From a virus: a stretch of 64,000 nucleotides of DNA. The stretch is taken from positions 62,001 to 126,000 of IMG/VR virus record IMGVR_UViG_3300035698_012962; one strand, given 5' to 3'. Both the position numbers and the translations under genes were made by a program. Shown in pieces: positions 11,576-43,497 of the stretch. The notes under the pieces are model-generated. The model ran no database searches, had not been told where the DNA came from, and worked only from the letters and a program-made list of their open reading frames with translations. The number at the start of each line of letters is the position of its first letter. Positions within the stretch are counted from its first letter, which is position 1.

Positions 11576-13587
11576 TATAGTACTCGTCCTCGGATATCTT
11601 GGTTTGGGTATTTCAATTCAAACACACATGGATCTAATGAAGGGTAAATCATGCGGTTCTGTGTAGAATCTTTAATATTATATGAGTTAGGTGAATATAC
11701 ACCCCCACATTTATTTTTAATTTCTAAAGATGGAACAGCTGATACACCTTCTATTCTTGCTATCAATACTTCTATTTCACTTAAATTTATCGGCATGTTA
11801 AATGTCCAGTTATCAATATTGAAATAATCTTTTAGTTCTTCAATGGCCTCTAATAATACTTCTCTTTTATTATAGTTTGGATATACAATAATATCAAATT
11901 CTACTCCGATGTTTACGATAAACCCATCAGTAATATTAACACCATCTGTTAGCATTCGATATTCATTTAAATATGTTTTTAAATTTTGCTTGATTGCGGG
12001 ATTAATATTTGTTAAATTTTGATTAGAATCATAACCTAAAACATATAAGTTAACGGCAAACGGATTGTTTTTTTCATCATAGTTATTTTTCTTTCCAACT
12101 AAAAAGTTCTTAACACTTTCTTTCACTTCATTCTTATCTATATCAACGCGAGATGAATATTCCAATATCAAATTAGAAAATTCTTCTAATGAAGAAGGGG
12201 TAGATAGAATAGAAGCAGGTGAATTATTATCCAATTCTCCGTCTGCAGTAGCGTATGCCTTTGTTACACTTCCATATTTTGGTGGAAGTGATAATGTTCG
12301 AACTATATAATCTTTTTTAGTTACTGCTCTGTTCTGTGCTCCAAAATTTGCTAAAGAGTTTTCTCTTATTTCCTCTAATGATTCAGCTCCTCTCCCACCA
12401 ACTGCTGGTACTTCATTTTCAACTGCCACTGAAGATTGAATGGATGTTACTAATTGAACTTGTTGTGGAGATAACGTAGAAAAGTCCACATCAAATTCTA
12501 TATTCACGATTCTAGTCAGATCACCTACTGCTACGTTTGTTTCTAAACCACCTCCTTTAAGATATTTAATTGTTAATGTTGTGTTCGCAGGCGATAGACC
12601 GTATGATCGTGTTTTTAAAAAGTTTGTAGGATCGAATGAATCATTTACCCTACTGATTGAATTTCTTGAACCAAGACCTACATTTTTAAAGTTGGGAACT
12701 AATAATTCATCTCTATTTTCTGGGTTTCCTACTCCAAATGTCAATGTAGTTGTATTATTTTCATTAACCTTTGTTACAAATCTTCTTGGTGTTTTTAATA
12801 ATTTTAAAACGTATGGTACTGAATTTTTATACTGTGATAATGAAGGATCGTTTATCTCTGTATTAGGATAATCTATATATATCATTTCTTGTGCTAAATA
12901 CGGAACTTCATACCATTTTGTTCCATTTTCATCCCTAACATCTTCTATTGAGATAACATTTGTATCTGTTAAATTAATCGTATTAAATGGTGTTGGTGAA
13001 CCAAAATCAAATGATCTAGTTTCAACTGTAGCTGATATCGCATCTATGTATTTTTTAACCAAATAAAACTCTGGCACATCAGTTGTTTCATTAGTTTGAT
13101 ACACAGAAATCTCTCTGTCATATTCAACTGAAAAATCTAGCGATTCAGTAGTAACAAATCGAAGTTCGGAATTAGATTGTGATTCCACTTCCATTCCAGG
13201 TTTAATCTTTATAAAATATCGTTCATCAGGTACGTATTCTCCACTCTTTTCAATAGATGGTACTAACTGATATACCGTTAGTGTCGTTATTGCAGGTGAA
13301 GTTACTTTTGGTTTATATCCTAAGTATTGCGCTAATGATAAAACATTTCGCTTATCTTGTGCGTGAACCATTAATGATTCTTTTAATGTATCGTCAATAT
13401 AATATGATAGTACATCACCTACATAAGAACTCATTTCAATAAATAACATTCCCGGTGATGATTCATTAAAATCCGAAAATGTTTTTGGAAAGTATGTTTT
13501 AGAAAAATCAATAAGTTGTTCTCTAAAAGATGAAAAATCTTTATTTAAGTATTGAATATTTCGTTTTTGTATTTTTGGTGTTGCCAT
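11575..13587 (-). CDS. 6: Baseplate wedge protein, gp6-like
   Basis: The opening (IQKRNIQYLNKDFSSFREQLIDFSKTYFP) and 'FNESSPGMLFIEMSSYVGDVLSYYIDD' are hallmarks of T4 gp6/Baseplate J family proteins. The length of 670 residues is close to T4 gp6. Later, 'GRGAESLEEIRENSLANFGAQNRAVTKKDY' matches the conserved region where wedge proteins dimerise. In T4-like phages gp6 forms the ring of the wedge and links to gp25 and gp53. Here gp25 is the next gene upstream, one base apart. Confidence in the family is high; details of assembly are inferred from T4. Confidence 0.92.
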   Translation of the reverse strand: MATPKIQKRNIQYLNKDFSSFREQLIDFSKTYFPKTFSDFNESSPGMLFIEMSSYVGDVLSYYIDDTLKESLMVHAQDKRNVLSLAQYLGYKPKVTSPAITTLTVYQLVPSIEKSGEYVPDERYFIKIKPGMEVESQSNSELRFVTTESLDFSVEYDREISVYQTNETTDVPEFYLVKKYIDAISATVETRSFDFGSPTPFNTINLTDTNVISIEDVRDENGTKWYEVPYLAQEMIYIDYPNTEINDPSLSQYKNSVPYVLKLLKTPRRFVTKVNENNTTTLTFGVGNPENRDELLVPNFKNVGLGSRNSISRVNDSFDPTNFLKTRSYGLSPANTTLTIKYLKGGGLETNVAVGDLTRIVNIEFDVDFSTLSPQQVQLVTSIQSSVAVENEVPAVGGRGAESLEEIRENSLANFGAQNRAVTKKDYIVRTLSLPPKYGSVTKAYATADGELDNNSPASILSTPSSLEEFSNLILEYSSRVDIDKNEVKESVKNFLVGKKNNYDEKNNPFAVNLYVLGYDSNQNLTNINPAIKQNLKTYLNEYRMLTDGVNITDGFIVNIGVEFDIIVYPNYNKREVLLEAIEELKDYFNIDNWTFNMPINLSEIEVLIARIEGVSAVPSLEIKNKCGGVYSPNSYNIKDSTQNRMIYPSLDPCVFELKYPNQDIRGRVL

Positions 13588-31163: not shown

Positions 31164-31952
31164 TTAATTACCAAACACTAATTTTACTTTATCTTCCACT
31201 TCATTCAATGGTGGAAAATGAACTACTTGAATCCTTGATCTTTCTACTACTAAATCTGGATTTGTATGTGCTTGGTGTTTTGGTGGGAGTGTATCTAATT
31301 CTTCCTTTGTGAAAGCTGATGATACAATACTTCGTTTTACGTATGTACCTTTCCTAAATTTATCAGGCAAATCCTTCCAATTTACACCTACAGAATGTAA
31401 CATCAACTTTTTCATTTCATCTCCGTTTTTGTTCTGTAGTTGTTTATGTGAAAAGAATGATTGTGCCAACATAGAAACTGAATTCTTTGTGGCATCGTTC
31501 TCTCGCCATAGTAATTGCGCAACAGCATCTTCTAATGTAGGTGTTTGATAAATTCTACTATCGAAGATTGCAATTTTATTGTGATTTGGTAAATGAATAT
31601 CAACCAATCTATTAAACTCAACAGATGCCTTAGAAGTTAATTTAGAAAGTATTTTTTGTTTTTTTCCTATATGATATAATGAAGAGTGTCGATTTGCTTC
31701 ATATAATACAAGTGTAATTTCATCTGATTGAGTATATCCTATTACTGCATTCGTTTCATCTACTAAATATTTAGTAAGTTCAATCATTATATCGGTTAAC
31801 TTTTCATCGAAAGGTCTTTCCAACCCATTTGTCCAATTATGAAAGTTGTTTCCATCTAATCTAATAATAACTGGAAGCGTTGGTATCATAATTTCTGGAG
31901 AGAAGCTCTTCTCTAACCATTTACACCAATCTCCTAATGTTTCAAATTTCAT
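31164..31952 (-). CDS. Thg1-like tRNA 3'-5' nucleotidyltransferase
   Basis: The Thg1 signatures are present: IIRLDGNNFHNWT (residues 29-41, with D33), 'AVIGYTQSDEIT' with D77 (metal ligands), and 'IFDSRIYQTP', 'AQLLWRENDATKNSVSMLAQ'. Thg1 adds G to the 5' end of tRNA-His; Thg1-like proteins repair truncated tRNA 5' ends by reverse polymerisation. At 262 residues it matches the family. It lies directly upstream of the helicase and methyltransferase, in one operon, near RNA ligase 1. A repair role against tRNA damage is inferred. Confidence 0.9.
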   Translation of the reverse strand: MKFETLGDWCKWLEKSFSPEIMIPTLPVIIRLDGNNFHNWTNGLERPFDEKLTDIMIELTKYLVDETNAVIGYTQSDEITLVLYEANRHSSLYHIGKKQKILSKLTSKASVEFNRLVDIHLPNHNKIAIFDSRIYQTPTLEDAVAQLLWRENDATKNSVSMLAQSFFSHKQLQNKNGDEMKKLMLHSVGVNWKDLPDKFRKGTYVKRSIVSSAFTKEELDTLPPKHQAHTNPDLVVERSRIQVVHFPPLNEVEDKVKLVFGN

Positions 31953-36912: not shown

Positions 36913-37959
36913 TTAAAAAATTAATGTTTGTTTTAGTTTTTCTATTTGTTTTAAAGCTTTTGGTGTACGTGTATCATAACCACCTTCCAATGTTATGTAC
37001 TCAATATTCTTCATTCTTAAAATTGTTCGAAGTGTTCTATCAAGCTCATTCCTGTTTTTCTCAGGCATCCTTGTTCCATCTTGTTCCCATTTTATTCCGT
37101 TTGGTGAACAATAGATATACATATCACCTACTCTATAATTTTTCTGATATGCCTTCATATCAATAGGATTTTCATCAAAACAGTATATACCATATGACAT
37201 TGTCGTATGAACATCCGTATCCATAATTATAAATGGTGTTAGTTTCTTTCTAACACTTTGATACCGTTTATAATGTTTTTCTAAAATAGTATGTAACATT
37301 TTAAATTCAAAATCAGCTGAATCATCAACGAGTTCTCTTCCCACCTCACTTACCATACTTACTATATCAGTTCCGTACGAATGTAATAAGTTATTTACTA
37401 ATGTAGTTTTTCCTGTTGATTCAGTACCTACTACTACAATAGTTTTTTGAAGAGATTGTTTTACCGTATCTGGTAGATACTCCCAATTAGCTACCCAGTC
37501 AAATCGAATATCAGTTGATGAAATTGGAAATATTTTCCGTTCTTCATCGAACATTTCATGTGATATATTCATATACTCTGCAACGTAATCACCGTATTTT
37601 TCCGATGAAACTATTACATCCAAATCATTATATATGATACTATATCTACTTATTTCTTTTAACTTATTTGCCCACACTTTTGATACTTCACGTGAACTCT
37701 CGGTAGCAGAAACCAATCCATCTACACCTTCTTTGTATTCAAATATATCTACCCATAAATCACTTGGTTTGTAATCTAGGCTTCGTACCCACTCAAATCG
37801 TTCCCAGCCATCTATTGATTCAGATTCTTCCGAACATATTAGGACAATCGTTTCATCTGCAATACTTCTTGCATATTCAATTAATGCTACATGCCCTTTA
37901 TGTAATGGACAAAATTTACCAAGAACTAAAGCCTTCCTATATTTTTTTGTTTGTTCCAT
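36913..37959 (-). CDS. nadR: Bifunctional NMN adenylyltransferase / ribosylnicotinamide kinase (NadR type)
   Basis: The adenylyltransferase domain has GKFCPLHKGH (residues 14-23) and ISSTDIR (146-152), both standard for the nucleotidyl-transferase fold. The kinase domain has the P-loop GTESTGKTTL (178-187). Together they phosphorylate nicotinamide riboside to NMN and adenylate NMN to NAD. I chose ATG 37959 (MEQTKKYRKALVLGKF) because it removes five residues that further overlap PnuC. There is no amino-terminal helix-turn-helix repressor, unlike E. coli NadR. It overlaps PnuC by about 34 bases. Confidence 0.92.
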   Translation of the reverse strand: MEQTKKYRKALVLGKFCPLHKGHVALIEYARSIADETIVLICSEESESIDGWERFEWVRSLDYKPSDLWVDIFEYKEGVDGLVSATESSREVSKVWANKLKEISRYSIIYNDLDVIVSSEKYGDYVAEYMNISHEMFDEERKIFPISSTDIRFDWVANWEYLPDTVKQSLQKTIVVVGTESTGKTTLVNNLLHSYGTDIVSMVSEVGRELVDDSADFEFKMLHTILEKHYKRYQSVRKKLTPFIIMDTDVHTTMSYGIYCFDENPIDMKAYQKNYRVGDMYIYCSPNGIKWEQDGTRMPEKNRNELDRTLRTILRMKNIEYITLEGGYDTRTPKALKQIEKLKQTLIF

Positions 37960-38507
37960 TGATATAGACCCCATATCGCGTTTATTAATAAAATTATGTA
38001 TTGAATAACTACTATATACATATCTACCATTAGATACACATAAATAGCTACAATATCAACTACTATCCATAATATCCACGATTCTATTCTCCGATATGCT
38101 AATAAAACCACAGCCATCATAGATCCCCACCAAATAAAAGAATCAAGATATGGATATTGTACTATTCCAAAAATTTCGGTTAAATATGTAGAGTTAGATA
38201 ATAAATAACCAAATACTATCGCTCCCATTATGGATACATAAAAAGAAAGAGCTATTGCATATTTATTTGACCATTTAATATGGTGGCCGTTATATGAACT
38301 ATCTCTCCATGTCCATAACCCAACAATAGAAACAATAATGAAATATAATTGAAGTAATACACTACCAACTAAACCTACACTATAAAATAAATAAGTGAAT
38401 AGTATTACACTTATTAAACTATATACCCATGTTACTTTATCGTTTAATCTAGCATACCATGCAGCTAATAGGCCAGTAATTACTGCAACTGTTTCAATAA
38501 TTAACAT
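37926..38507 (-). CDS. pnuC: PnuC-family nicotinamide riboside transporter
   Basis: This 193-residue inner-membrane protein has about seven membrane helices. The PnuC signatures are 'LQLYFIIVSIVGLWTWR' (residues 52-68), 'DSFIWWG' (122-128), 'RRIESWILWIVVD' (139-151) and 'INAIWGLYQW' (175-184). PnuC moves nicotinamide riboside by facilitated diffusion, trapped by phosphorylation. Relatives move thiamine or riboflavin, but the NadR-type gene next to it favours nicotinamide riboside. Its ATG overlaps the receptor gene's stop by one base (TGATG), so translation is coupled. Confidence 0.9.
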   Translation of the reverse strand: MLIIETVAVITGLLAAWYARLNDKVTWVYSLISVILFTYLFYSVGLVGSVLLQLYFIIVSIVGLWTWRDSSYNGHHIKWSNKYAIALSFYVSIMGAIVFGYLLSNSTYLTEIFGIVQYPYLDSFIWWGSMMAVVLLAYRRIESWILWIVVDIVAIYVYLMVDMYIVVIQYIILLINAIWGLYQWNKQKNIGRL

Positions 38508-40486
38508 CAGAAGTTATATTTAACAGTTGTAAAGTAATTTCTAGGTGACTGAATATGATATCTTGGTTCACCATCAAACATATCCACATATCCATTTGTA
38601 AAGTATCTTTCATCAGTAACATTATTAATGTATAATGATATTGTTATATCTTTTACATCAAGAGATAATCTCAAATCAGTTACAAAAAATCCATCTATAA
38701 CCTCTGTATTAGAAAAATCTATATAGGATTCCCCTTGATACCTTAACGTAGTTCCTACGTTAAATTTGCCCAATCTAACATCAATTAAATTGTTTACAAT
38801 GAATTCTGGTGATAGAATAGGTTTAAATGAATTACCTTGATCTTTAATTCTATTATCACTAAAACTTCCGTTTAATCCGTATTGAAATCTATCACTATTA
38901 AACATATAATCAAATTCAACCCCACTTCGAACAGAAGTTTCTACATTTTGTGTAAGAGCTATTCCATTCGGACCGAATTGGCCGTTCAATGTAATTTCAT
39001 TTCGAAAATCCATATAATATCCATTCAAAGTAAATACATTTCTATCAGATCGTAATCGTACTCCCACTTCGTAATTGGTTACATACTCAGGTTGAGTTTG
39101 ATATACTTCAACTAAATTATCTTCACCACCGAACATATCATTTCTTGTTGGTTCTCTACCTGTGCTACCTACGCTAGTATACACATTAAATAATCCCAAT
39201 GTATAACTAGCACCAATTCTAGGATTAAAAAATAACCATGTTTGTTTATCCATCTGTACATCTCCTTCATACAAAAAGTTTGTATATCTTAATTGGAAAT
39301 CCCCAAATAAAGTAAATCGGTTAATATCATTTTCAATTCGTTGATGTACACTTACTTCGTTTCTAATACCCGTGTTTTGATATAACTCACCTAATTGTAA
39401 TTCGGACCCGACGTGTCTTCGTTCATAATTATTTAAATGAATACCAGTAACAGATTCTAAACCATTGTTAACGTAAATGAGATTTGTAAAAGTACCGATC
39501 CAACCTGATCGTAAGTCGTAATTATAAAATTCATTGGTTGCAAATTCAGTTCCACTCAATCCTAAGAAAGCATCTAAATCAAAATCGTAATTACCTTCTA
39601 AAAAGTTATAATAAAAAGCGTTTTGTAGTTGGAATCTATCAGATAGAGTTACATTAGTTTGTACAGATACCATTCCTTGTGTAAAACTATCATCTTCATT
39701 TTTAGTATTTACATTAGTCTGTGGTCTTTGATTTATTTGCTCCAATGGAACTCCTAACCAACCCATACCATTTCGTTGCCTTCCAATGAAGGAAACAAGT
39801 TTAATGTTATATGATGGTTTATAATAACCAGAAGAATAAAAAACAGATTGAGAATTATTCCATACATTATCTCTATAACCATCTGATTCGATATGGGAAA
39901 TACGTACATAAGTTCCTACCTCAGAATTAATTCCTGTGTTATGTTCAATAGAAAATCGTTTTGAATTGAAAGAACCCAATCCTATATTAAAGTTTGTATA
40001 TTTATCATCCCATAGAGAAGGAGACGATAACTGAACAGATCCACCATAAGATGCCGTACCATTCTGCGTCATTCCGGTTCCTCTTTGAATTTGTACTGAA
40101 CTTACAGAACTAAATATGTCAGGATAATTTGAAAAGTAAACACCCTGATCTTCAGGTTCGTTTAATGGCATTCCATCTAATGTCATATTTAATCTGGTTT
40201 GATCTATCCCACGTAATCTAAAATAAGAATAACCATTACCACTACCCGCATCCGAGTACGTAGTAAATCCTGGCGTATTCCGTAAGATAAGGGAAGGTTC
40301 TTGTCCATAATTCACCTTTTGTATTTCTCTCTGTGAAATAGTGCGGAAAGAGATAGGTGTAGTTGGTGTTGCTCGATATGTGATAATCACATCATCCATA
40401 GTATATAAACTATCTGGATTAACTGTTGATTGCCCATACAGAGATGTACTCACAAAGAGTGTTAGTATTAAAAATAACGATTTCAT
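38507..40486 (-). CDS. TonB-dependent outer-membrane receptor, full length
   Basis: The protein has a signal peptide (MKSLFLILTLFVSTSLYGQS, residues 1-20), a TonB-box-like stretch (DDVIITYRAT, 31-40), a plug domain (residues ~45-155, with LRNTPGFTTYSDAG, YFRLRGIDQTRLNMTLDGMP and SVQIQRGTGM) and a ~500-residue beta-barrel ending in NYFTTVKYNF with the terminal Phe used by the barrel machinery. I see no frameshift or stop, and the length (659) fits the family. It would bind a scarce ligand and import it into the periplasm, using the host's TonB. Its neighbours, PnuC and NadR, point to nicotinamide riboside or a related vitamin. A phage-encoded receptor of this class is, to my knowledge, unreported. 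Confidence 0.9.
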   Translation of the reverse strand: MKSLFLILTLFVSTSLYGQSTVNPDSLYTMDDVIITYRATPTTPISFRTISQREIQKVNYGQEPSLILRNTPGFTTYSDAGSGNGYSYFRLRGIDQTRLNMTLDGMPLNEPEDQGVYFSNYPDIFSSVSSVQIQRGTGMTQNGTASYGGSVQLSSPSLWDDKYTNFNIGLGSFNSKRFSIEHNTGINSEVGTYVRISHIESDGYRDNVWNNSQSVFYSSGYYKPSYNIKLVSFIGRQRNGMGWLGVPLEQINQRPQTNVNTKNEDDSFTQGMVSVQTNVTLSDRFQLQNAFYYNFLEGNYDFDLDAFLGLSGTEFATNEFYNYDLRSGWIGTFTNLIYVNNGLESVTGIHLNNYERRHVGSELQLGELYQNTGIRNEVSVHQRIENDINRFTLFGDFQLRYTNFLYEGDVQMDKQTWLFFNPRIGASYTLGLFNVYTSVGSTGREPTRNDMFGGEDNLVEVYQTQPEYVTNYEVGVRLRSDRNVFTLNGYYMDFRNEITLNGQFGPNGIALTQNVETSVRSGVEFDYMFNSDRFQYGLNGSFSDNRIKDQGNSFKPILSPEFIVNNLIDVRLGKFNVGTTLRYQGESYIDFSNTEVIDGFFVTDLRLSLDVKDITISLYINNVTDERYFTNGYVDMFDGEPRYHIQSPRNYFTTVKYNF

Positions 40487-40504: not shown

Positions 40505-40609
40505 TTAGTTTTCTTTTATATTTGTGTTACGAGTAACCCAAATTGGTTTGTATTTATATACACTGTTTAAGTTATCACGAATAGAAATTTCTTTGGGCTC
40601 TATATTCAT
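40505..40609 (-). CDS. Small protein, 34 aa
   Basis: From ATG 40609 it reads MNIEPKEISIRDNLNSVYKY..., ending VTRNTNIKEN. It overlaps the EcoRI-type methyltransferase stop by four bases (ATGA) and ends 19 bases before the receptor ATG, so it is a plausible bridge gene in the operon. The function is unknown. Confidence 0.5.
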   Translation of the reverse strand: MNIEPKEISIRDNLNSVYKYKPIWVTRNTNIKEN

Positions 40610-41616
40610 AGTCTTTTGTTTCTAATAATTATTCGGGCATAAGGTACTTTAACTTCGCCATCTTTCATCATATATAAGTCACCATCAACGGCTCCTCTTT
40701 TTTGTACCTCTTTACGGTATTTTTTGTGATCATCTTTGTATGGTTCTACACCTATTTCTAATCCTGAACTGGATATTCCTAATCCAATTATCTCAAATTG
40801 ATCTGGATTATGTCTATTTAAAAAGGTTATCGGCACTCCCATATATCCCTCAAAATCTTTAGGTATATGTTTTGTTACATTAACATTGATGGCATCATAG
40901 TTATCATATTTCGGGTAGGCATCTTTATTTTCATTATAAGATTTGTAAAGTATAATATCTTCATGCCTTTTGGCAATGTCTAAGTTAGTGTACCAAAAGG
41001 ATCTTGCTGTTTCATACATTGAACCGTCTGGTCTTCCAAAATGCCTTACTGTATTGTAGCCAAGCCACATTTTATTTGATTTTATTTGTTCAAAACACTC
41101 TTTATAAGAAATGGCGTTGATGTTCCCAATTATCAAAAATTTCTTTTCGCATTCGACTAATTGGCTTACATATTCTCTGAAAAGTGAAAATGGTGGATTG
41201 GTTACAACAATATCTGCTTGTTTCAGAAGTTCAATAGATTCTTTCGAGCGAAAGTCTCCGTCTTCTTTTAACTCTTTAATTCCAATATCGTCAGGGTCTG
41301 GAATTTTGTTTCCTTTCTTATCACCATCATACTCAAGGAAGATTGCTTGTTCAGAATCGTGTTGACTGAACAAATTCATATCCTGCTTTTTATAGCAAGT
41401 TGTTATAAGTTTTTTAAGACCTAATTTTTCAAAGTTATAGGAGAAATAGTGGAAGAAATTACTTACTCTTGGGTCATCACAATTGCAGTAAACAACTTTA
41501 TTTTTAAAATATTCTCGGTAGTGTTTTAACTCTTTTTCTATATCTGAAAGTTGGGTATAAAATTCGTCCTTTTTCGCGTCTTTTGCTTTGTGTAGATTCT
41601 TATTATTGGTTGACAT
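40606..41616 (-). CDS. EcoRI-type adenine DNA methyltransferase
   Basis: The region KAKDAKKDEFYTQLSDIEKEL and 'NKVVYCNCDDPRVSNFFHYF' matches the family of the EcoRI methylase, and 'DIVVTNPPFSLFREYV' is the catalytic motif (NPPF, residues 140-143). The enzyme adds a methyl group to adenine N6. I chose ATG 41616 (MSTNNKNLHKAK) instead of 41706, since the 30 extra residues are hydrophobic and unlike the family. No EcoRI-like endonuclease is adjacent. An orphan phage methylase would shield the genome from host restriction. Product is 336 residues. Confidence 0.87.
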   Translation of the reverse strand: MSTNNKNLHKAKDAKKDEFYTQLSDIEKELKHYREYFKNKVVYCNCDDPRVSNFFHYFSYNFEKLGLKKLITTCYKKQDMNLFSQHDSEQAIFLEYDGDKKGNKIPDPDDIGIKELKEDGDFRSKESIELLKQADIVVTNPPFSLFREYVSQLVECEKKFLIIGNINAISYKECFEQIKSNKMWLGYNTVRHFGRPDGSMYETARSFWYTNLDIAKRHEDIILYKSYNENKDAYPKYDNYDAINVNVTKHIPKDFEGYMGVPITFLNRHNPDQFEIIGLGISSSGLEIGVEPYKDDHKKYRKEVQKRGAVDGDLYMMKDGEVKVPYARIIIRNKRL

Positions 41617-41731
41617 TTTTAATCTCTTTATAAATAAATTTATTATACCAAATCCAATTACTAACGTGTTGATGTGACATCTTATCAATATCAACACGGT
41701 TACCATCGAATGTTTGAACGTATGATTTCAT
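41603..41731 (-). CDS. Small unknown protein, 42 aa
   Basis: From ATG 41731 it reads MKSYVQTFDGNRVDIDKMSHQ..., ending FIYKEIKNVNQ. The 'I-D-K-M-s-H-Q-H-v-S-N' segment resembles small phage proteins seen in similar positions. It overlaps its upstream partner by four bases (ATGA) and the methyltransferase start by 14. Confidence 0.6.
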   Translation of the reverse strand: MKSYVQTFDGNRVDIDKMSHQHVSNWIWYNKFIYKEIKNVNQ

Positions 41732-42384: not shown

Positions 42385-43497
42385 TCATATTGTAACGTTA
42401 ATTTTACGTATCCATCCACCACTCACAACGTCATCTCCTTCATAGGAAACTAAAGCCTGTCCAGGTGTTATTGCATCTCTCCCAACTGGAAAGTGAACGT
42501 GTAATTCTGTATCAGATACTTGTGTTATTTCAGAAGACGTTCCATCGTCATTATATCTGATTTTGGATATAGCTTCATATTTTTCAGTTGGTATTGAATC
42601 ATATTTCACCATATTCACCTCATCTACAATACAATCATAACTTACCAACTCTGATTTTTCACCTACTGTGATCGTGTTTGTTGTTGGCTCTATATGAGTA
42701 ACATACAACGGTTCGGTATTAGGTATATTTATCCCTCTACGTTGCCCAATTGTAAACTTATAGTAACCCTCATGCTCTCCTATTTTGGCTCCATCTGAGT
42801 TAATTATGGAACCACCAGATAGATCACCTGTTAATCTTCCACTCTCTTTGATAAACCTATGATAATTATTATCAGGAATAAAGCAGATTTCATAGGAATC
42901 AGGTTTGTCAGCAACATTCAACAATCCCCAATCCGTTGCCATATCTCTAATTTCTGTCTTATGATAAGACCCCAATGGAAATATAGTTCTGGCTAAATGT
43001 TTTTGTGACACACCCCAAAGTGCATAAGACTGATCTTTAGAATGATCCTTACCTTTAGAAATTACATACCGTCCATTTTCTTCTCGTAAATTCGCATAAT
43101 GACCTGTTGCAATAAAATCACATCCAAGATCATCTGCTCTACGTAAAAGTGCAGCCCATTTAATATGAGTGTTACAAAGTACACACGGGTTTGGTGTTCT
43201 ACCACTTACATAATCATCAACAAACCGATCAATAACAAATGCACCAAACTCGTCTCTAATGTCTACAATGAAATGTTTGAATCCATGTCGGACTGCAACT
43301 TGTCTAGCATCATTCATTGATTCAACAGTACAACATCCAACTTCTTTACCTGACTTCACATCTTCTGGGTTATGAGCCCAAGTTTTCATTGTGATACCTA
43401 TGATATCATACCCTTGTTTTTTGAGCATAACTGCCCCTACTGTGGAATCTACACCACCCGACATTGCAAATAAAACTTTTCCTTTATTCATTTTCAT
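42385..43497 (-). CDS. mnmA: tRNA 2-thiouridylase MnmA
   Basis: The ATP loop AMSGGVDS (residues 11-18), the first catalytic cysteine in TPNPCVLCN (C105), the second in SYEICF (C205), and 'ATGHYA' and 'TIGQRRGI' are all present. MnmA adds sulfur to U34 of Glu, Lys and Gln tRNAs, with a sulfur relay from the host. Length (370) is full for the family. A phage copy could maintain wobble decoding during heavy translation or alter targets of anticodon nucleases. It overlaps the gene upstream by 14 bases. Function is well supported; the benefit to the phage is inferred. Confidence 0.92.
   Translation of the reverse strand: MKMNKGKVLFAMSGGVDSTVGAVMLKKQGYDIIGITMKTWAHNPEDVKSGKEVGCCTVESMNDARQVAVRHGFKHFIVDIRDEFGAFVIDRFVDDYVSGRTPNPCVLCNTHIKWAALLRRADDLGCDFIATGHYANLREENGRYVISKGKDHSKDQSYALWGVSQKHLARTIFPLGSYHKTEIRDMATDWGLLNVADKPDSYEICFIPDNNYHRFIKESGRLTGDLSGGSIINSDGAKIGEHEGYYKFTIGQRRGINIPNTEPLYVTHIEPTTNTITVGEKSELVSYDCIVDEVNMVKYDSIPTEKYEAISKIRYNDDGTSSEITQVSDTELHVHFPVGRDAITPGQALVSYEGDDVVSGGWIRKINVTI

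Follow-up and report, generated by a model that had tools for sequence, protein, structure and literature searches.

Introduction

As a rule, a metabolic gene carried by a phage encodes a lone enzyme or a transporter of the inner membrane. For salvage of nicotinamide adenine dinucleotide (NAD), the closest phage systems are the pairs formed by the transporter PnuC and an adjacent NadR-type enzyme in Vibrio and Caulobacter phages, KVP40 being one phage with such a pair. They come without an outer-membrane receptor, unlike the locus described here, which lies in a 64,000-nucleotide stretch of viral DNA (the window hereafter; bases 62001-126000 of the linear, 136,266-base IMG/VR virus record IMGVR_UViG_3300035698_012962) and in which a TonB-dependent receptor is followed by PnuC and NadR. 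The same three genes, in the same order, form an operon in Bacteroidota, the difference being that the latter is cellular. We consider it very probable that the window carries a phage-borne version of this Bacteroidota operon, dedicated to the import of nicotinamide riboside (NR) through the outer membrane, its transport by PnuC, and its phosphorylation and adenylation to NAD.

Two other phage systems invite comparison. A TonB-dependent receptor labelled ‘(SusC)’ has been noted in Mar_Mega_1 and LR745206, with carbohydrate uptake as its proposed role (PMC9723777). The published LR745206 gene is likely the homologous receptor that we find in the same genome, where it is contiguous with PnuC and NadR, and we do not read it as serving sugar uptake. 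The first-pass annotation of the window, which knew of no phage with its own outer-membrane receptor for the same substrate, was thus anticipated once as to the receptor itself; as to a phage receptor forming part of an NAD module, no earlier report was found in the literature searched (open-licence papers), and the main texts of the huge-phage and Lak papers searched mention neither TonB, PnuC nor nicotinamide. The second system is NARP1, through which phages likewise rebuild NAD against its depletion (PMC12774641); it is described as repurposing the products of NAD-depleting systems inside the cell, whereas the window module would import a precursor and uses other enzymes.

Results and Discussion

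The association of the three genes goes far beyond chance: of the receptor loci compared, the trio is present at 31 of 40 from viruses and at 47 of 80 from cells, the outcome of a search against Bacteroidota receptors near pnuC and against phage genomes that the first-pass annotation had proposed. When 50,697 phage records were searched with the receptor, relatives appeared in 24, including fifteen Lak records of ~540-552 kb (complete circular Lak genomes among them) and the large phages LR745206 (635 kb; receptor 41.5% identical to that of the window), LR756502 (642 kb) and LR756501/3 (735 kb). PnuC and NadR adjoin the receptor or stand within ~8 kb of it in the five representative phages examined, and both gene order and the 1-nt overlap of receptor and PnuC are those of the window in LR745206 and LR756502. 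Used as a single-protein query against IMG/VR, the window receptor gave no match; a profile scan gave 35 further loci, some of them near-duplicates. Besides the 31 trios, the viral loci comprise six with receptor and NadR and three with neither partner, NadR accompanying the receptor in 37. The three exceptions are a receptor at a contig end, one partnerless within 8 kb, and a truncated remnant of 152 amino acids (L040:2926-3384), which looks like a decayed copy; ~54% identical to the window receptor, it is followed by neither PnuC nor NadR over the next 8 kb. In the 735-kb phage LR756501, an NAD synthase and an isochorismatase/nicotinamidase-like gene (L003:7052-7987 and 12848-13522) flank receptor, PnuC and NadR to form a larger NAD cluster, and a nicotinate phosphoribosyltransferase (NAPRTase) gene stands near the module in loci L017 and L038.

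In only some phages is the receptor added to PnuC and NadR. The phage records with PnuC number 372, Vibrio phages accounting for 341, and those with a NadR relative number 742; neither Vibrio nor Caulobacter phages (eight PnuC records in the latter) are among the receptor matches in phage records, and the NadR-PnuC pair stands alone in both Vibrio phages examined. Similarly, 17 of the 22 IMG/VR loci found through NadR, among the matches listed, have no receptor in the DNA covered. Where related phages do carry the trio, all three genes are kept by purifying selection, as pairs of receptors give ratios of nonsynonymous to synonymous substitution rates (dN/dS) of 0.05-0.30, and PnuC and NadR of 0.04-0.37.

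Each product also has the features expected of its family. The receptor matches the Pfam families TonB_dep_Rec_b-barrel (1.9e-26) and Plug (1.6e-13), and combines plug, barrel, signal peptide and aromatic C-terminus (Phe) as TonB-dependent transporters do; V33, in the TonB-box-like stretch, is invariant in alignment A1. Its predicted model (mean predicted local distance difference test score, pLDDT, 88) matches the folds of PqqU, Fiu, FoxA and FecA. PnuC matches NMN_transporter (1.3e-38) and passes NCBIfam TIGR01528 (84.6 bits, cut-off 42.45), and the vitamin B3 transporter 4QTN is the sole significant PDB match of its model (pLDDT 92). NadR matches AAA_28 (6e-19) and CTP_transf_like (2.2e-7), and retains the motifs HKGH (HxGH), ISSTDIR (ISSTxxR) and Walker A GTESTGKTT, all conserved in the alignment.

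The cellular relatives, taken as the best 80 from 84,980 genomes, are nearly all from Bacteroidota, two records titled as other phyla being probably mis-binned. The closest receptors are 41-48% identical to that of the window. Receptor, PnuC and NadR are contiguous in the same order in 47 loci, many of them sharing the window's 1-nt overlap of receptor and PnuC; 24 have receptor and NadR, and nine the receptor alone within the DNA covered. NadR is therefore beside the receptor in 71 of 80, and the NAD regulator NrtR adjoins it in locus L046. The module thus appears to be cellular in origin and linked to NAD, and the window trio a phage-borne copy of the Bacteroidota operon.

Phages may have acquired it once or several times: the viral receptors split into several deep clades, with that of the window inside a cellular clade (Shimodaira-Hasegawa-like approximate likelihood ratio test, SH-aLRT, 85), while the approximately unbiased test does not reject a single viral clade (p 0.18, all viral receptors). 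In Lak-type phages NadR is very distant from all other NadR, and the receptor is accompanied by a pair in the order NadR-PnuC. With lineage and order differing so deeply, the three functions were probably brought together on more than one occasion. The trio in any case connects the largest known phages (Lak and those of 635-735 kb) with a T4-like phage, which the window record is: a terminase, a T4-type major head protein and tail-fibre-like genes are present in the full record, and baseplate, RNA ligase and thymidylate synthase genes within the window. The closest terminase is that of Flavobacterium phage immuto (54.7% identity), which makes a host among the Bacteroidota probable; the first 150 of 160 kb of immuto gave no tblastn match to receptor, PnuC or NadR. 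Being linear, the record may be incomplete.

A receptor nested among cellular ones could also mean that host DNA was wrongly joined to a phage contig, a case that the first-pass annotation had named as a possible refutation. We find this scarcely credible, given that phage hallmark genes lie on both sides of the operon, that its GC content (0.315) and GC content at third codon positions (0.19-0.20) are inside the range of the surrounding phage genes, and that identity to the closest cell receptor reaches no more than 49%. The module recurs, moreover, in complete Lak genomes and in phages of 635-735 kb. A chimeric contig was rejected on composition and recurrence.

The ligand of the receptor

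Bacteroidota also have pairs of a receptor and a PnuC-family transporter that lack NadR. Directly upstream of two such pairs lies a thiamine pyrophosphate (TPP) riboswitch, which marks these two as thiamine (receptor-PnuT) systems. They resemble the window operon in the succession of receptor and transporter, and differ from it in the riboswitch, in the lack of NadR and in their receptors, which together with those of the other pairs form a separate, fully supported clade that excludes the window receptor. The plug motif is PLNNPESQEVYWVN in the TPP-linked receptors and PLNEPEDQGxYFSN in those of the window and most NR operons. One viral entry, the 5.5-kb ‘Bacteriophage sp.’ record MT838261 (L007), has a receptor-PnuC pair grouping with the thiamine-class outgroup, and may be a bacterial fragment mislabelled as phage.

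These differences bear on whether the receptor serves another ligand (thiamine, another cofactor, or a sugar, as the ‘SusC’ label has it) and stands beside PnuC and NadR by chance. Relatives of PnuC can carry thiamine, PnuC proteins of Bacteroides have been termed likely thiamine porters (PMC6281302), and the nearest solved fold of the receptor is the pyrroloquinoline quinone importer PqqU, so that the fold does not settle the matter; none of its solved relatives has NR as ligand. A chance association is nonetheless improbable in view of the NadR linkage in both viral and cellular loci, and thiamine was rejected because TPP riboswitches are confined to the outgroup class, with its different plug motif, and the RNA families searched gave no match, hence no riboswitch, near the window operon. 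As for sugars, no SusD match was found among the ten neighbourhood proteins scanned, and the genes around the receptor (EcoRI-type methylase, MnmA, PnuC, NadR, DNA ligase) do not give it the glycan-utilisation setting expected of a SusC-type carbohydrate receptor. NR is the best-supported ligand from gene context, given the NadR linkage, the separate thiamine clade and plug motif, and the absence of a riboswitch at the window operon. This agrees with the initial suspicion of a vitamin imported and converted to NAD, which trio linkage, intact motifs and the separation of the thiamine class all favor; the nearest receptors belong to Bacteroidota receptor-PnuC-NadR operons and not to systems for some other ligand. 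The published sugar-uptake interpretation of the megaphage receptor would thereby be corrected, and a ligand indicated for a cellular receptor class seemingly without a tested one, since no experimental ligand for it was found in the literature searched.

Phages commonly have TonB-dependent receptors as their receptors on the host, and complexes of FhuA with phage protein are among the fold matches of the window receptor. One could therefore suppose that it acts in superinfection or adsorption, as a decoy or a replacement receptor, the NAD genes being incidental. That it should do so is very improbable, considering that TonB-box-like stretch, plug and barrel are conserved with transporters and that the linkage of receptor and NadR persists across distant phages.

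Mechanism and purpose

Read as an NR importer, the receptor would take NR through the outer membrane, energised by the host's TonB; PnuC would let it diffuse into the cytoplasm, where the NadR kinase would trap it by phosphorylation to nicotinamide mononucleotide (NMN) and the NadR adenylyltransferase would turn NMN into NAD. In this way the phage could bypass NAD synthesis of the host during infection. The PnuC and NadR steps are proposed from the known functions of their families and the receptor step from its context; from such context we infer the ligand, and likewise expression during infection and the use of host TonB.

The most likely purpose is a general supply of NAD for a large DNA phage. 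What NADases leave behind is nicotinamide and ADP-ribose, and not NR; the NR route therefore recycles neither and needs NR from outside. Restoration of NAD against NAD-depleting defences is a possible purpose too. NAD gained by import could be put to either use, supply or counter-defence, or to both at once. That the module mainly rebuilds NAD after such defences, like the NARP pathways, we think rather unlikely, even with the precedent of NARP1 and with ADP-ribose-binding macro-domain genes in the vicinity of receptor and NadR, PnuC not being nearby, in two viral loci (L016:10156-10635 and L025:10876-11400, one match being slightly under the Pfam cut-off). The inability of the module to recycle NADase products speaks against it, as does the window record, in which our searches detected neither a macro domain nor genes for NAPRTase or the isochorismatase family. 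An NAD-synthase match in this record was discarded, as it lies below the cut-off and within the gene for the tRNA-modifying enzyme MnmA. With the trio it becomes possible to ask by experiment whether large phages are limited by their NAD supply or wield it against immune systems that deplete NAD.

The trio is real, conserved and phage-borne, and it extends known phage NAD salvage to the outer membrane. A complete route from the outside to the cytoplasm and on to the cofactor would show that viruses can remodel the host surface for feeding. Our hypothesis is that what general porins do in other hosts requires an energised receptor in Bacteroidota. From there follows a broader idea, which we believe about as readily as we doubt it: that phages of Bacteroidota repeatedly add an energised vitamin receptor to the NAD salvage pair because the outer membrane of the host blocks entry of the vitamin through general porins, the virus thus remodelling the infected cell, up to its surface, as a nutrient importer.

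Several points weigh against an NR operon in the window. NR as ligand of the whole receptor class is suggested by neighbour genes, members of the PnuC family vary in substrate (NR, thiamine), and PnuC is not nearby in six of the 40 viral loci, which have receptor and NadR. In the tree, the window PnuC joins NadR-linked PnuC and those of Vibrio phages with 98% support, yet the length of its branch makes its position loose and unreliable. NadR scores below the NCBIfam equivalog cut-offs (136.9 bits against 201, and 132.9 against 341), and is therefore best called a divergent NadR-type protein, a predicted enzyme and not a certified equivalog. Finally, selection was measured in other phages, the window phage having no close relative for dN/dS.

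Layout of the locus and neighbouring genes

Coordinates and Pfam matches (Table 1) bear out the three overlapping genes of the first-pass annotation, including a 659-residue receptor with signal peptide, plug and terminal Phe. The overlaps given there hold as well: base 38507 is common to the receptor stop and the PnuC start, and the reported overlap of about 34 bases between PnuC and NadR is 34 nt from the second Met of NadR (MEQTKKYRKALVLGKF) and 49 nt from its first ATG. The second Met is likely the real start, as it agrees better with the starts of homologues.

Table 1. Position of the operon genes and their parts in the window
Feature	Position	Strand	Basis
TonB-dependent receptor, putative nicotinamide-riboside class, 659 aa	38507..40486	-	Pfam, homologue searches, tree, model
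Receptor signal peptide (predicted), residues 1-19	40430..40486	-	Read from sequence; in the model, hydrophobic helix then low-confidence linker
TonB-box-like stretch DDVIITYR, residues 31-38	40373..40396	-	Comparable stretches in relatives from phages and cells
Plug domain, class motif RGIDQTRLNMTLDGMPLNEPEDQGVYFSN	40040..40360	-	PF07715, residues 43-149; motif comparison
Beta-barrel domain, residues 163-659	38510..40000	-	PF00593; predicted model
PnuC inner-membrane transporter, 193 aa	37926..38507	-	Pfam, NCBIfam, fold match 4QTN
NadR-type bifunctional enzyme (predicted), 353 aa; likely real start 37959	36913..37974	-	Pfam, NCBIfam, motifs
NadR NMN adenylyltransferase domain, HKGH and ISSTDIR motifs	37504..37935	-	Pfam, motif alignment
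NadR ribosylnicotinamide kinase domain, Walker A GTESTGKTT	36937..37449	-	Pfam, motif alignment

The operon has an EcoRI-type methylase, MnmA and a DNA ligase as neighbours. Directly upstream of the receptor lies the EcoRI-type adenine methyltransferase (PF13651, E 1e-121; 40606-41706, minus strand), for which no nuclease partner was recognised among the neighbour proteins scanned. The phage-borne MnmA, a tRNA 2-thiouridine synthase, is full-length (42385-43497, minus strand). Further tRNA-related functions are a guanylyltransferase-like gene for tRNA-His at 31164-31952 and, in the record, a domain of tRNA nucleotidyltransferase type, although no tRNA gene was found in the window.
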